From assembly GCF_006517535.1 (NCBI RefSeq), contig NZ_VHQH01000039.1:210801-274800 (forward strand): DNA of 64,000 nt, written 5' to 3'. This stretch comes from Schumannella sp. 10F1B-5-1 (GTDB lineage: Bacteria > Actinomycetota > Actinomycetes > Actinomycetales > Microbacteriaceae). Numbering within the stretch: the stretch's first letter is position 1; each line of letters opens with the position of its first letter. This document shows, one piece after another, positions 3,075 to 40,757 of this stretch. A program made the position numbers and the translations under genes. Below the pieces are notes generated by a model that worked only from the letters and a program-made list of their open reading frames with translations, was not told the origin of the DNA and made no database searches.

Positions 3075-3163
3075 TGTCGGAAACTCAGGCGTTGCGCATC
3101 CCGCCCCGCATCAGGGCTGGGATGCGCGGCATCCCGCTGTGGGCAACGCCTGAGTTTCCGACA
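3075..3163. repeat. Inverted-repeat element, copy 1
   Basis: The left arm TGTCGGAAACTCAGGCGTTG (3075-3094) and its exact reverse complement (3144-3163) flank a 49-base core; total 89. It lies 40 bases after the permease stop and before the leuA leader promoter. The core contains its own CGCATCCC/GGGATGCG inverted repeat but is not shared with other copies. The GGGC that usually follows the right arm is here, in complement, before the left arm, so this copy may be in the opposite orientation. Confidence 0.95.
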
Positions 3164-3198
3164 CCGAGCCTCACGGACGGGGCCCCGCGGAACGGTGG

Positions 3199-3204
3199 TA
3201 GCCT
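3199..3204 (+). promoter_or_regulatory. -10 box of the leuA leader transcript
   Basis: TAGCCT stands 6 bases before GTG 3211, the start of the leader peptide, so the transcript should be leaderless and the peptide translated from its 5' end. No clear -35 is present. Confidence 0.6.
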
Positions 3205-3210
3205 CGGTCC

Positions 3211-3255
3211 GTGCTCTTCGGCCTGCTTCTTCTTAGCTGCCGCGACGAGGCCTAG
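3211..3255 (+). CDS. leuA leader peptide
   Basis: A 14-codon frame starting at GTG and ending at TAG encodes VLFGLLLLSCRDEA. It has four Leu codons in a row (CTG CTT CTT CTT), and CTT is rare in this genome. Starved ribosomes would stall at this run and change folding of the downstream stem (3240-3279). Leader-peptide control of leuA is known in actinobacteria; here it is recognised from the Leu run, the position and the overlapping stem. The frame was read by hand because it is very short. Confidence 0.8.
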   Translation: MLFGLLLLSCRDEA

Positions 3256-3279
3256 ATCCAACGGCCTCCCTCGTCGCGG
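3240..3279 (+). promoter_or_regulatory. leuA attenuator stem
   Basis: CCGCGACGAGG (3240-3250) pairs perfectly with CCTCGTCGCGG (3269-3279). The 5' half lies inside the last codons of the leader peptide, so ribosome position on the Leu run would decide whether the stem forms. No T-rich tract follows, so it may act by Rho-type termination or by affecting leuA translation instead of classical termination. An RBS-like AGGAG lies at 3314-3318 before leuA. Confidence 0.65.
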
Positions 3280-3332
3280 AGTCTGTCGTCGGCTGTTTCC
3301 GTCCATCCCTCACAGGAGAGACCAGCTAGACC

Positions 3333-5093
3333 ATGAAGAACACCCAGAAGCCCAGCCCCCTGCCGGTGCACCGCTACCGCTCCTACAGCGAGCAGTTCCG
3401 CACCGACCTGCCCGACCGCACCTGGCCCGCGAAGGTCATCGACGTCGCCCCGATGTGGTGCGCCGTCGACCTGCGCGACGGCAACCAGGCGCTCATCGAC
3501 CCGATGAGCCCCGAGCGCAAGCGCATCATGTTCGACCTGCTCGTGAAGATGGGCTACAAGCAGATCGAGGTCGGATTCCCGTCGGCGAGCCAGACCGACT
3601 TCGACTTCGTCCGTCAGCTCATCGACGACGGCGCCATCCCGGATGACGTCACCATCCAGGTGCTGACCCAGGCGCGCGAGCACCTCATCGCCCGCACGTA
3701 CGAGTCGCTGTGCGGCGCCAAGCAGGCGATCGTGCACCTCTACAACTCGACCAGCATCCTGCAGCGCGACGTCGTGTTCCGCACCGACCAGCAGGGCATC
3801 GTCGACATCGCGCTCGAGGGCGCGCGCCTGTGCCGCGAGTACGAGAAGACGATCCCCGAGACGACCGTCTACTACGAGTACTCGCCCGAGAGCTACACCG
3901 GCACCGAGCTCGAGTTCGCCCGCGACATCTGCAACCAGGTGCTCGAAGTGCTCGAGCCGACGCCCGAGCGCAAGGTCATCATCAACCTGCCCTCGACGGT
4001 CGAGATGGCCACGCCGAACGTCTACGCCGACTCGATCGAGTGGATGTCGCGCAACCTGAACCACCGCGAGAACGTCATCCTGAGCCTGCACCCGCACAAC
4101 GACCGCGGCACCGCGATCGCCGCCGCCGAGCTGGGCTACCAGGCCGGCGCCGACCGCATCGAGGGATGCCTGTTCGGCAACGGCGAGCGCACCGGCAACG
4201 TCGACCTGGTCGCGCTGGGCATCAACCTGTTCACGCAGGGCATCGACCCGCAGATCGACTTCAGCGACCTCGACGAGATCCGCCGCACGGCCGAGTACTG
4301 CAACCAGCTGCGGGTGCCCGAGCGCAGCCCGTGGGCGGGCGACCTGGTCTACACCGCGTTCAGCGGCAGCCACCAGGATGCGATCAAGAAGGGCTTCGAG
4401 GCCATGGAGCGCCGCTCGGCCGAGACCGGCACCCCGGTCGCCGACCTCGAGTGGGCCGTGCCCTACCTGCCCGTCGACCCGAAGGATCTGGGCCGCGGCT
4501 ACGAGGCCGTCGTGCGCGTCAACTCGCAGTCGGGCAAGGGCGGCGTCGCTTACCTGCTGAAGGCCGACCACTCGCTCGACCTGCCGCGTCGGCTGCAGAT
4601 CGAGTTCAGCCAGGTCGTGCAGGGCAAGACGGACACCGAGGGCGGCGAGGTCACGAGCGAGCAGATCTGGAGCGTCTTCCAGGACGAGTACCTGCCCGCC
4701 GCCGCGGCCGACGACAAGTGGGGTCGCTTCGAGATCCTGTCGACACGTACCGCGAGCGAGATGACCGGCTCGATCGAGCTGGAGATCCGCTGGCGCGTGG
4801 GCGAGGAGGTCACGTCGGCGACCGGCGTCGGCAACGGCCCCATCGCCGCGTTCCTCGGCATCCTGGCGGAGGAGGGGCACGAGGTGCGCCTCTACGACTA
4901 CGTCGAGCACGCACTGTCGGCTTCGGGCGACGCTCTGGCCGCGGCCTACGTCGAGCTGCAGGTGGGGGATGCGCGCCTCTGGGGCGTCGGCATCGACGCC
5001 GACATCTCGACCGCGTCGCTCAAGGCGGTCGTCTCGGCGGTCAACCGCGCCGTGCGCACCCACGGCGGCGACCGCGAGCTCGCCTCGGTCTGA
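3333..5093 (+). CDS. leuA: 2-isopropylmalate synthase
   Basis: A 586-residue enzyme that condenses 2-oxoisovalerate and acetyl-CoA, the first step of leucine synthesis. The catalytic TIM barrel begins near residue 40 with the metal-binding [10 protein letters not shown], continues with [10 protein letters not shown], and carries the His pair in [12 protein letters not shown] and the [15 protein letters not shown] loop. The C-terminal LeuA dimer/allosteric domain (about 430-570) should bind leucine. The length matches the longer actinobacterial form. ATG 3333 is preceded by AGGAG at 3314. It stands alone, with a leader peptide and attenuator stem upstream and inverted-repeat elements on both sides. 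Confidence 0.98.
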
Positions 5094-39031: not shown

Positions 39032-39109
39032 CAACGCTGACGTGAGGCGGCGGCGCACCGGCGCAGCGGCGCGCGGGGCTTCCACGGGATGCTGTTTGCC
39101 GCCCCGCGA

Positions 39110-39125
39110 TCGTCTCGGGGGAGTA
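39110..39125. promoter_or_regulatory. Operator candidate before the SHOCT gene
   Basis: TCGTCTC-GG-GGGAGTA keeps the right half of the kinase palindrome exactly and four of seven bases of the left half. A weak -10 (GACGCT, 39170-39175) starts exactly 44 bases later, the spacing of the other two sites. The -10 was chosen partly because of this spacing. Confidence 0.5.
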
Positions 39126-39218
39126 GTCGGCGGGTCCCGGCGGCGGATTCGCGCGGGGCCCGCCACGACGACGCTGGAAGCACCCGGAAGCACCGGGCCG
39201 TTTCGAGCAAGGGACATC

Positions 39219-39548
39219 ATGATCACCGCAACCGCTCTCACCGCCCTCGCCGCGCACCCGCACTGGGTCGGCGGCGGGGCACCGTGGCTCTTCTTCCTCA
39301 TCCCGCTGTTCTGGATCGTCGTGCTGGGCGTGATCTTCGCGTTCGTCGGTCGTCGCTGGCGCCGCGCCGCGTGGTCGAACGGCTACGGCCCGCACGCCGC
39401 GCACTGGGCGACCACCAGCGGCGCGCGCAGCGCCGAGGCGGTTCTCGCCGACCGCTTCGCGAACGGCGACATCGAGGAGCAGGAGTACCGCGCACGCCTC
39501 GAGGTGCTGCGCGCGAATCAGCAGCCGCCGATGCCGCCGCGCGGCTGA
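39219..39548 (+). CDS. SHOCT-domain membrane protein
   Basis: A 109-residue protein with one transmembrane helix (LFFLIPLFWIVVLGVIFAFV, about residues 24-43). A basic segment and a C-terminal SHOCT motif follow (AEAVLADRFANGDIEEQEYRARLEVL). SHOCT domains are short oligomerisation units, often on stress-related membrane proteins beside two-component systems. ATG 39219 follows AAGGGA. It is placed after the kinase/regulator pair and has a matching operator candidate, so it is a probable target. Confidence 0.85.
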   Translation: MITATALTALAAHPHWVGGGAPWLFFLIPLFWIVVLGVIFAFVGRRWRRAAWSNGYGPHAAHWATTSGARSAEAVLADRFANGDIEEQEYRARLEVLRANQQPPMPPRG

Positions 39549-39664
39549 TCGTCGGCCACGAGCACAGCGTGCGACATCGAGGCCTCGGGATGCGCTCCCG
39601 GGGCCTCGACCCGTGTCCGGACAGCCCGAACCGATGCCCGCGCGACTCCCGCTACTCTCAGACC

Positions 39665-40570
39665 GTGCAGGACAACCCCGCCGCGAGCGTTCCCGGAGGA
39701 TCGATGATCCTCACGATCGCTCTGCTCGCCCTCGCGATCGCGGCCGTCGTGCTCCTCGTCCTGTGGCTCGTGAACCGCGCCGCCGCCGTGCGCGCTCGCG
39801 CGGCGCTGCAGCGCGCCGAGTCCGACCGCGTCGAGTTCGAGCTCACGCTGGCCGAGCAGACCGATCGACTCCGCATCGCCGGCGAGCTCGACGACCTGGC
39901 CGCGGCGGCACTGACCGACGTCATCGCGCAGGCCGATCGCATCCGCCGGATCGCCGGCACGGATGCGGGGGCCGCCACCCGCGCCGCCGACGGGCTCGTG
40001 GATGCGGCGCGCCGCGCCCTCGCCGACCTGCGACGCGGGTCGACTCTGGCCCGCGACGGCGCCGCAGACGCGGCCGAGCTCGGCTCGACGCCGGGACTCG
40101 CCGACCTCGACCGCCTCGTCGACGCCCTGGCCGGAACCGGCGTCACCGCGACCCTGCGCTCCTTCGGCGAACCCTTCGAGCTGACGCCCGCCGCCGACCT
40201 CGCCCTGCTGCGCATCGTGCAGCAGGCGCTGCAGAACGCCGCGGCGCACGGGGGAGAGGGCACGACCGCGACCGTCGCGCTGCGGTGGTCGACGGATGCC
40301 CTGCAGCTGCAGATCGACGACGACGGCGAGCGGGCGACCGCGATCCGCGCCGGCTCCGACCCCGACGATCCGGCCGCGTACAGCGCCGGCGACGACCTCG
40401 CCGCGCTGACCGAGACGCCCTGGGGTCGCGGGATCACCGAGATGCGCGAGCGCACCGAACTCTTCGGCGGCGTCTTCACCGCGAACCGGATCGCGGGAGT
40501 CGGCTTCTCGGTGGTCGCGAGCTTCCCCGACCTGCGGCACCACAACGGCGTGCACGGCGTCCCGCTCTAG
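39665..40570 (+). CDS. Degenerate sensor kinase-like protein lacking the phospho-acceptor His
   Basis: A 301-residue protein with one N-terminal membrane helix (about 14-36) and a coiled stretch. RLRIAGELDDLAAAALTDVI aligns with the kinase H-box RIARELHDVLAHSL but has Asp76 where the His should be. A recognisable ATPase domain remains (RIVQQALQNAAAHGG N-box, QIDDDGE, GRGITEMRERTELFGG). It probably cannot autophosphorylate and may modulate the neighbouring kinase. GTG 39665 stands 6 bases after a TACTCT -10 (39653-39658). A half-site of the operator lies 44 bases before that box. No response regulator follows. Confidence 0.82.
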   Translation: MQDNPAASVPGGSMILTIALLALAIAAVVLLVLWLVNRAAAVRARAALQRAESDRVEFELTLAEQTDRLRIAGELDDLAAAALTDVIAQADRIRRIAGTDAGAATRAADGLVDAARRALADLRRGSTLARDGAADAAELGSTPGLADLDRLVDALAGTGVTATLRSFGEPFELTPAADLALLRIVQQALQNAAAHGGEGTTATVALRWSTDALQLQIDDDGERATAIRAGSDPDDPAAYSAGDDLAALTETPWGRGITEMRERTELFGGVFTANRIAGVGFSVVASFPDLRHHNGVHGVPL

Positions 40571-40668
40571 CCGGCGCCGCGCAACCACCCGACTCCACGC
40601 ATCCACCCGGCGCCGCGCTCCCACGCAACGCCATCCGCGCAGCTGCCGAGCCGAGCCGCTCGACGCGA

Positions 40669-40757
40669 TGTCGGAAACTCAGGCGTTGATCCGCCACACC
40701 TTTGATTCCGCGCGCCGCGACGTCATCGCCACACGCACAACGCCTGAGTTTCCGACA
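40669..40757. repeat. Inverted-repeat element, copy 11
   Basis: Perfect arms (40669-40688 and 40738-40757) around a 49-base core, between convergent genes: 98 bases after the kinase-like gene and 12 before the end of def. This is the last copy in the window. GGGC follows the right arm. Confidence 0.95.

Follow-up and report, generated by a model that had tools for sequence, protein, structure and literature searches.

Paired inverted-repeat sites and a bracketed gene for a putative winged-helix, Vsr-like nuclease in Schumannella and other Microbacteriaceae

A stretch of 64,000 nucleotides from Schumannella sp. 10F1B-5-1 (contig NZ_VHQH01000039.1, positions 210,801 to 274,800), referred to here as the window, carries a family of elements of about 89 base pairs (bp), each comprised of two inverted arms of 20 nucleotides that enclose a spacer, or core. 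Two of these elements bracket a gene at positions 21377-22477 of the window, and the predicted product of this gene combines an AbiEi-type winged helix with a weakly matched Vsr-like nuclease domain. Based upon sequence comparisons, we consider it on balance probable that each element is a two-armed recognition site of the nuclease that is encoded between two of them, and very probable that the gene and the arms are cognate. The system looks to be centred on one bacterial family, the Microbacteriaceae, and it is apparently undescribed.

Paired arms in the window and in related genomes

A search of the window with the 20-mer arm, in which up to three mismatches were allowed, gave 22 matches, 11 on each strand, and the short motif GGAAACTCAGG also has 22 exact matches. 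Neither the 20-mer at this tolerance nor GGAAACTCAGG was matched in 100 shuffled versions of the window, and a chance origin of the arms (22 found versus none in 100 shuffles) is therefore ruled out. All eleven pairs that a preliminary description of this DNA had reported were recovered where it had placed them, six of the copies having both arms perfect and the short motif being intact in every arm, as it had stated. Ten of the copies are 88-90 bp long and the eleventh is a split pair. The search of the whole genome that the same description had proposed (3.28 Mb in 324 contigs; the guanine plus cytosine (GC) content of the window is 72%) gave 26 arms forming 13 pairs at up to three mismatches. 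Eleven of the 13 pairs are in the window, within 38 kb; the 12th is on the same contig, 47 kb past the last pair of the window, and the 13th is on a different contig. The family had been called dispersed, which is an incomplete description, as the copies cluster around the gene and mostly occupy equivalent positions in related species. The elements, for which no strand is assigned, and the bracketed gene are as follows (window positions).

3075-3163: solo element of 89 bp with two convergent 20-nucleotide arms; follows an FtsX-like permease gene by 40 bp and precedes leuA by 169 bp
5134-5222: solo element, 89 bp; follows leuA by 40 bp, the genes on its two sides being convergent
8275-8363: solo element, 89 bp; ahead of uppS and overlapping recO at its 3' end
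14791-15140: split pair, wholly within nadB (codons 422-428 and 532-538); arm starts 330 bp apart
17305-17394: solo element, 90 bp; flanked by two convergent genes, aminotransferase-V and LysR
21185-21272: upstream bracketing element, 88 bp; precedes the nuclease gene by 104 bp
21377-22477, plus strand: candidate cognate gene; AbiEi_4 winged helix at residues 2-42, weak match to the Vsr-type nuclease MTES_1575 at residues 197-265
22252-22339: downstream bracketing element, 88 bp; within the 3' part of the nuclease open frame
26610-26698: solo element, 89 bp; flanked by a dgt-like gene of the HD-domain type and dnaG
36734-36822: solo element, 89 bp; precedes a histidine kinase gene by 139 bp
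38943-39031: solo element, 89 bp; follows a response-regulator gene by 83 bp
40669-40757: solo element, 89 bp; separated by 12 bp from the 3' end of a gene for peptide deformylase, genes convergent

The exact pair GGAAACTCAGG...CCTGAGTTTCC was found in six of 59 sampled genomes, the window's own (referred to as G000) being counted, and in 36 stretches of a collection of 84,980 species. By title and taxonomy the carriers are all Microbacteriaceae, save for three stretches of the marine actinobacterium PHSC20C1, which is unclassified within Actinomycetes at NCBI. The core of the arm is common to these genomes, and the adjoining bases on the spacer side vary between genomes but largely agree within one. 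De novo searches of 20 regions around glyS revealed variant arms, AAATTCAGG and GGCAACTCC, in genomes where the exact pattern had given no match.

The distances between successive pairs are mostly equal to within a few percent across G000, G003 and G004 (Schumannella soli), and because most of these spacings agree, the pairs are taken to be orthologous. At ten such sites, which were picked for exact arms so that the conservation of the arms is inflated, and among which the split pair was left out, sequence identity is 96-99% for the arms, 40-50% for the cores and 44-59% for the flanks. Since the arms differ so much from the cores in this respect, the spacer evidently drifts while the arms are held in place, and today vertical inheritance appears to account for most of the sites, which selection on their arms would maintain. 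A comparison of orthologous loci had been suggested in the preliminary description, and it revealed the same gaps occupied in the relatives, with conserved arms and drifted cores. Between recO and uppS, G004 has one element more (L018 17785-17996) than G003 and G000, and because of this it seems that pairs can be gained or lost.

Evidence for copying of elements was sought by comparing the cores of 110 elements from 11 genomes. The strong matches consist of two tandem duplications of whole elements, one in G064 and one in Galbitalea, and one possible inverted copy (L084, that is G064 C1:1074679, 1074835 and 1081832; L040 1533 and 1726); no element of the window is among them, which bears out the earlier claim that its cores are unconserved. 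The members of this third pair, in G064, are 7 kb apart and in inverted orientation, with 34 spacer bases in agreement and a score of 19, which is reached in none of 20000 single-base shuffles, but the match was picked from 575 pairs. Core pairs scoring at least 14 make up 1.2% of comparisons within genomes versus 0.17% between them, and beyond the cases named no pair stands out among the 575 within genomes. Some copying of elements is thus likely on the sequence evidence, yet rare compared with spacer drift. When the spacers were searched for a central motif, a weak GC-rich bias was obtained (log-likelihood ratio of 90 versus 41-54 in six single-base shuffles), and this candidate was set aside. 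Inspection by eye of the 30 bases on either side of each of the 11 copies in the window revealed no consistent target-site duplication; no match of four or more bases lies beside the arms, and there is one of three.

The spans of the 110 pairs fall into discrete classes, namely 71-73 bp (18 pairs), 81-85 bp (63), 92-94 bp (27) and 104 bp (two), with none between. This survey was limited to spans of 60-110 and to neighbouring arms with at most one mismatch, with split pairs excluded and the elements chosen by their arms, and its p values treat elements as independent, which orthologous elements are not. Because the spans step by about 11 bp, the two arms would keep to one face of the helix of double-stranded DNA. 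Some sites have nested extra arms, in the order > > < < or > > > < < <.

The bracketed gene and its relationship to the arms

The neighbours of the bracketed gene are an aminoacyl-tRNA synthetase gene (read as glyS) and a DsbA-like gene. The part that it shares with its homologues ends near 22252, and the frame continues through the downstream element to 22477. The protein is about 290 residues in size, is 71% identical to its Schumannella soli counterpart and matches AbiEi_4 above the cut-off (expect value, E, of 4.7e-7) as well as AbiEi in PADLOC (4.5e-9). AbiEi_4 is above the cut-off in three of eight homologues scanned, the window protein included, and DUF559 in three of the eight; MTES_1575 matches seven of them, with E values from 0.001 to 5e-9 that are all below the curated cut-off. 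Seven residues (E196, D223, E233, D235, H240, D247 and D251) are invariant in all 13 aligned homologues, which are 29-42% identical to the window protein. In the AlphaFold model a winged helix is joined to a nuclease-like core of helix-strand-strand-strand, and the best Foldseek entries include 6y8q (AbiEi), 3hrl (an endonuclease-like protein) and 3r3p (I-Bth0305I, catalytic domain). Homologues at an E of 1e-30 or better are present in at least 61 of 90 sampled Microbacteriaceae genomes and, at 1e-30, in one of 118 other genomes in a sample of the phylum.

The genome of the window contains three more paralogues (w1, w2 and w3), each bracketed by its own different arms, with bracket spans that are equal on both sides (69/69, 65/65 and 64/64). 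A scan of about 829 kb, out of a genome of 3.28 Mb, for solo pairs at the same spacing gave three full ones for w2 and one for w3, and for w1 unpaired or irregular arms only. The w2 elements agree over most of their length, and the neighbours of w2 were read as thyX and dapA. At L133 18270-18560 (G000 C316:118270-118560), several tandem w1-type arms adjoin a degenerate w2-type pair; predicted sites of two different nucleases adjoin at this place.

A first, unsystematic look at 28 gene copies gave 18 convincing brackets. In a systematic test, matching bracket pairs (score of 2 or less) were found at 37 of 73 Microbacteriaceae genes versus 4.5% in a control in which the downstream flank was swapped in from another genome, and a perfect score was obtained at 19 of the 73 versus 0.31%. 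The set consisted of the 30 best-scoring loci, 40 picked among the matches listed (down to about 1e-62) and the three own paralogues; 23 of the 57 genes unseen before and 14 of the 16 previously seen have matching pairs. The upstream element is situated about 60-200 bp before the coding part in the 37 genes, and the stop lies before the downstream element in 22 of them, inside it in nine and beyond it in six, although these positions depend on where the profile hits end.

The arms also vary along with the protein. Arm distance rises with protein distance (Mantel r of 0.29 and 0.31, p 0.0005), and 17-19% of arm positions differ for proteins more than 50% identical versus about 44% for those less than 35% identical; the U-against-D arm distance rests on genes passing the bracket test and is biased by that. 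At the thyX-dapA locus of G003 the w2 gene is 81% identical and its arms are nearly the same, and in G002 (38%), G033 (40%) and G001 (41%; dapA is outside the fetched stretch) quite different arms are found on both sides of the related gene. G004, G070, G062, G008 and G061 lack the gene between thyX and dapA and, as judged by eye, also an element there, and in G021, G025 and G069 there is no gene match in the fetched thyX-dapA stretch. In the 20 glyS regions, elements are present in seven of the eight with the gene beside glyS and in none of the 12 without it (Fisher p 1e-4); four of the latter (L078, L086, L089 and L092) show clusters of three to four pairs with low-complexity arms and unequal spans, which were taken as chance, the controls for such clusters being four single-base shuffles with at most two pairs.

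Two copies of the gene are present in G025 (L081 9446-10633 and L097 3914-5090), 1.6 Mb apart, whose proteins are 80% identical and which are bracketed by the same arms. The DNA similarity of 76% extends from about 20 bp before the aligned gene start to the downstream left arm, and the arms alone agree beyond it; this is a copied unit and not a long segmental duplication. The nuclease gene was at first doubted as the cognate one, as it is broken in G027 and present in genomes that seemed to be non-carriers, but it was taken up again when the variant arms and the bracketing were found.

A number of observations weigh against a site-specific nuclease that is cognate with these arms. The MTES_1575 match of the window protein is weak (E of 0.001, below the cut-off) and DUF559 is not matched; the AlphaFold model is poor, with a mean predicted local distance difference test score of 62, and no Foldseek match has an E below 0.3. 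Brackets were lacking at seven of the 28 gene copies in the first look and doubtful at three, and 36 of the 73 genes are without matching brackets by the criteria used, by which degenerate and absent ones are indistinguishable. The gene of G008 adjoins glyS without visible arms, and the thyX-dapA genes of G027 and G063 (33%) have no clear matching arms. In G004 the thyX-dapA locus is cleanly empty, without the solo element that cut-and-move might leave. Lastly, the G027 gene at L041 849-1681 (RM56_bin.064, G027 C6:176852-177693) is split by a stop or frameshift while its elements remain intact, which may reflect a recent loss or an assembly error.

Proposed mechanism, location of the sites and alternative explanations

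In the mechanism that we propose, one winged helix would grip each arm, the two subunits would line up along one face of double-stranded DNA, and the nuclease domains at their C-termini would meet over the spacer, like two half-enzymes over a long target. Binding to the upstream element would control the gene's own expression, as in AbiEi, and cutting in the spacer followed by repair would spread the sites, and occasionally the gene together with its brackets, mostly to places close to the gene. These steps are not equally secure. Binding of the protein to double-stranded DNA is predicted with high confidence, and autoregulation is predicted with slight preference. Whether the sites spread in the past through cutting and repair is evenly balanced in our judgement, which was raised from somewhat less than even after analysis of the copied unit in G025 and the possible inverted copy; such spread would fit the crowding of sites around the gene as well as the G025 unit. 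Cutting within the spacer, for which the conserved acidic and histidine residues are the sole hint, falls a little short of this. More tentative still is the general scheme of paired half-site nucleases, in which each paralogue would have arms and a helical spacing of its own, two sites would bracket its gene and further sites would be seeded around it.

The genes among the pairs of the window, for which gene calls were made with our own script and neighbour families assigned by Pfam, are mostly ordinary (leuA, RNase H, recO, uppS, nadA and nadB- and nadC-type genes), and the others include genes for a tRNA synthetase (read as glyS), a DsbA-like protein, dihydrouridine synthase, an HD-domain protein, dnaG, an oligopeptide-type transporter and deformylase. 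The arms of the split pair flank the C-terminal domain of NadB, inside its coding sequence, and this step is also armed in relatives, with three plus two arms in G003 and one plus one in G004 between the corresponding neighbour pairs. Two transfer RNA genes were identified by Rfam at 36578-36650 and 43950-44023, and the element at 36734 starts 83 bp after the first of these. A region on the minus strand at 55349-58894, as read from translations alone, resembles a fatty-acid synthesis cluster (ketoacyl synthase, acyl carrier protein, FabH and FabD).

The solo sites are concentrated near the gene, the share at a distance of up to 100 kb being 11 of 12 in G003, 12 of 15 in G002 and 10 of 15 in G064, but 5 of 13 in G025 (unpaired arms were dropped, bracketing elements were excluded, and the p values assume an independence that is untrue for orthologous elements). 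The crowding in the first three genomes would also be consistent with the foremost alternative, that the elements are operators or parts of DNA architecture, bound by a repressor or looping protein with a nuclease domain that is a vestige or has its function at other places, with the solo pairs serving as extra operators or loop anchors. Arms that are conserved in place while cores drift, the helical phasing of the arms and the precedent of AbiEi are equally in keeping with this proposal. However, it leaves unaccounted for the nuclease-like acidic and histidine residues that are invariant in 13 homologues of only 29-42% identity; the neighbours of the solo sites are unrelated and mostly housekeeping genes; three window copies are situated between convergent genes, where a promoter is unexpected; and the clustering in G025 is weak. 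We regard this explanation as unlikely, and recognition sites of the putative nuclease are preferred.

A classical mobile repeat of the MITE (miniature inverted-repeat transposable element) or REPIN type, in which the arms would be terminal inverted repeats and the nuclease a transposase moving short elements, is less probable again. The element-gene-element layout, the existence of solo copies, the duplication of the bracketed gene in G025, the extra element of G004 at recO-uppS and the agreement of the w2 elements over most of their length could all be read in this way, and so could the possible inverted copy in G064, although it is not decisive. Against this, the elements hold orthologous positions across species, the 575 within-genome core pairs include none that is notable beyond the named cases, no consistent target duplication is seen by the arms, and a mobile repeat would need no helical phasing. 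A plain mobile-repeat reading (MITE or REPIN) finds little support, as beyond the tandem duplications there is one possible dispersed copy, and that in another genome.

That the elements are chromosome-terminus sites was our first idea, and sites of a MatP-like terminus organiser are now considered very improbable. A single dif-like match is present in each of the eight genomes searched (C322:368333-368351 in G000), and in G000, G002, G003 and G004, all four of the window's genus, the cluster is about 68-229 kb from it, on one side, with outliers in G003 (one at 373 kb, on the other side) and G000 (one on another contig); in G002 and G003 the cluster is also roughly opposite dnaA. However, G025 has a second cluster around its second gene copy and its other sites are spread round the chromosome, on which the idea was dropped, and the paralogous arm families are located elsewhere. 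Hairpins of RNA or single-stranded DNA, which inverted arms could in principle form by pairing, were likewise dropped and have next to no probability, since no hairpin signal was found in arm identity within pairs (likeness of left and right arms 0.576 in one element versus 0.564 across elements, permutation p 0.19, the elements being selected by their arms), in core folding (z = -0.24) or in the span steps of 11 bp, and Rfam at the gathering score gives two tRNAs and no other family in the window.

Comparison with known systems

In keeping with the earlier statement that no described element has this sequence, none was found in the open literature searched, where no title among the matches listed for the 11-mer and its complement is that of a bacterial-repeat paper. 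Similarly, no title among the matches listed describes a nuclease-site system of this kind, most subscription papers and all bioRxiv preprints being outside that search. If the proposal is correct, an orphan combination of domains (AbiEi winged helix and Vsr-like nuclease) would be tied to defined DNA sites, and the 37 protein-site pairs would provide a ready data set on how winged-helix specificity changes. It would also provide a second, independent test case, beside REPIN/RAYT, of why short-repeat populations linked to a single enzyme are retained by bacteria over very long times. Under the more tentative scheme of paired half-site nucleases, engineered dimeric nucleases would have a counterpart in nature, and one genome would hold a set of orthogonal specificities.

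Genes for RAYTs (tyrosine transposases associated with repetitive extragenic palindromes, REPs) are flanked by REPs. The REPIN-like layout noted in the preliminary description is present, and REPIN/RAYT systems, as far as they are covered in the part of the source consulted, share with the present one two inverted repeats, a short diverse spacer, an associated enzyme gene and vertical inheritance (PMC8049555). The preliminary description had suggested looking for a Y1 (RAYT-like) or other transposase gene tracking with the element; a gene that tracks with it was indeed found, but it encodes a winged-helix, Vsr-like nuclease; PF01797 was detected at an E of 0.001 in none of 12 carrier genomes, while five of 14 control genomes were positive. 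Because no Y1 transposase was found in these 12 genomes and no selection for hairpin pairing was seen, the elements are not REPIN/RAYT. Their spacing, in addition, follows the DNA helix, the genome has several independent arm families, and its 13 pairs compare with the 69-235 REPINs given for E. coli strains in the portion consulted (PMC8049555). The elements do not look like a typical MITE either, because no consistent target duplication was seen beside the window copies and interiors are hardly ever shared.

Two monomers of AbiEi bind the inverted repeats of its promoter and the DNA is bent, and neither AbiEi nor Rv2827c binds the repeats of the other, according to the part of the source consulted (PMC7319586). 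The present system resembles AbiEi operators in its AbiEi_4 winged helix and in having inverted repeats near the gene, but the arms are tens of bp apart rather than 3 or 13 bp, a second copy is found downstream and solo copies elsewhere, and the C-terminal part is nuclease-like. It is not an AbiE toxin-antitoxin pair, because no gene for the toxin (a nucleotidyltransferase) is present beside the window gene, whose neighbours by Pfam are a tRNA synthetase and a DsbA-like gene.

I-Bth0305I, which has an EDxHD domain, dimerises on a target of nearly 60 bp, as described in the part of the source consulted (PMC3943268). A Vsr-type nuclease domain, indicated here by a weak and non-significant fold match, may be shared with such EDxHD/Vsr homing endonucleases, but the present gene is bracketed by whole sites and interrupts none, no intron or intein is seen around the window gene, and the conserved sequence is in distant arms and not across a centre. 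The second gene copy of G025 is at a new, bracketed locus, and the gene-less thyX-dapA locus of G004 is without a site. The original description of MTES_1575 concerned a large fused protein from Microbacterium testaceum (PMC3710099, consulted in part), where the portion consulted contains no such arrangement as that seen here, a protein of about 290 residues with sites of its own. The best reading of the elements is that they are the paired recognition sites of a nuclease family, predicted from sequence, which is somewhat like REPIN/RAYT, AbiEi operators and the EDxHD homing enzymes, and belongs to none of them.

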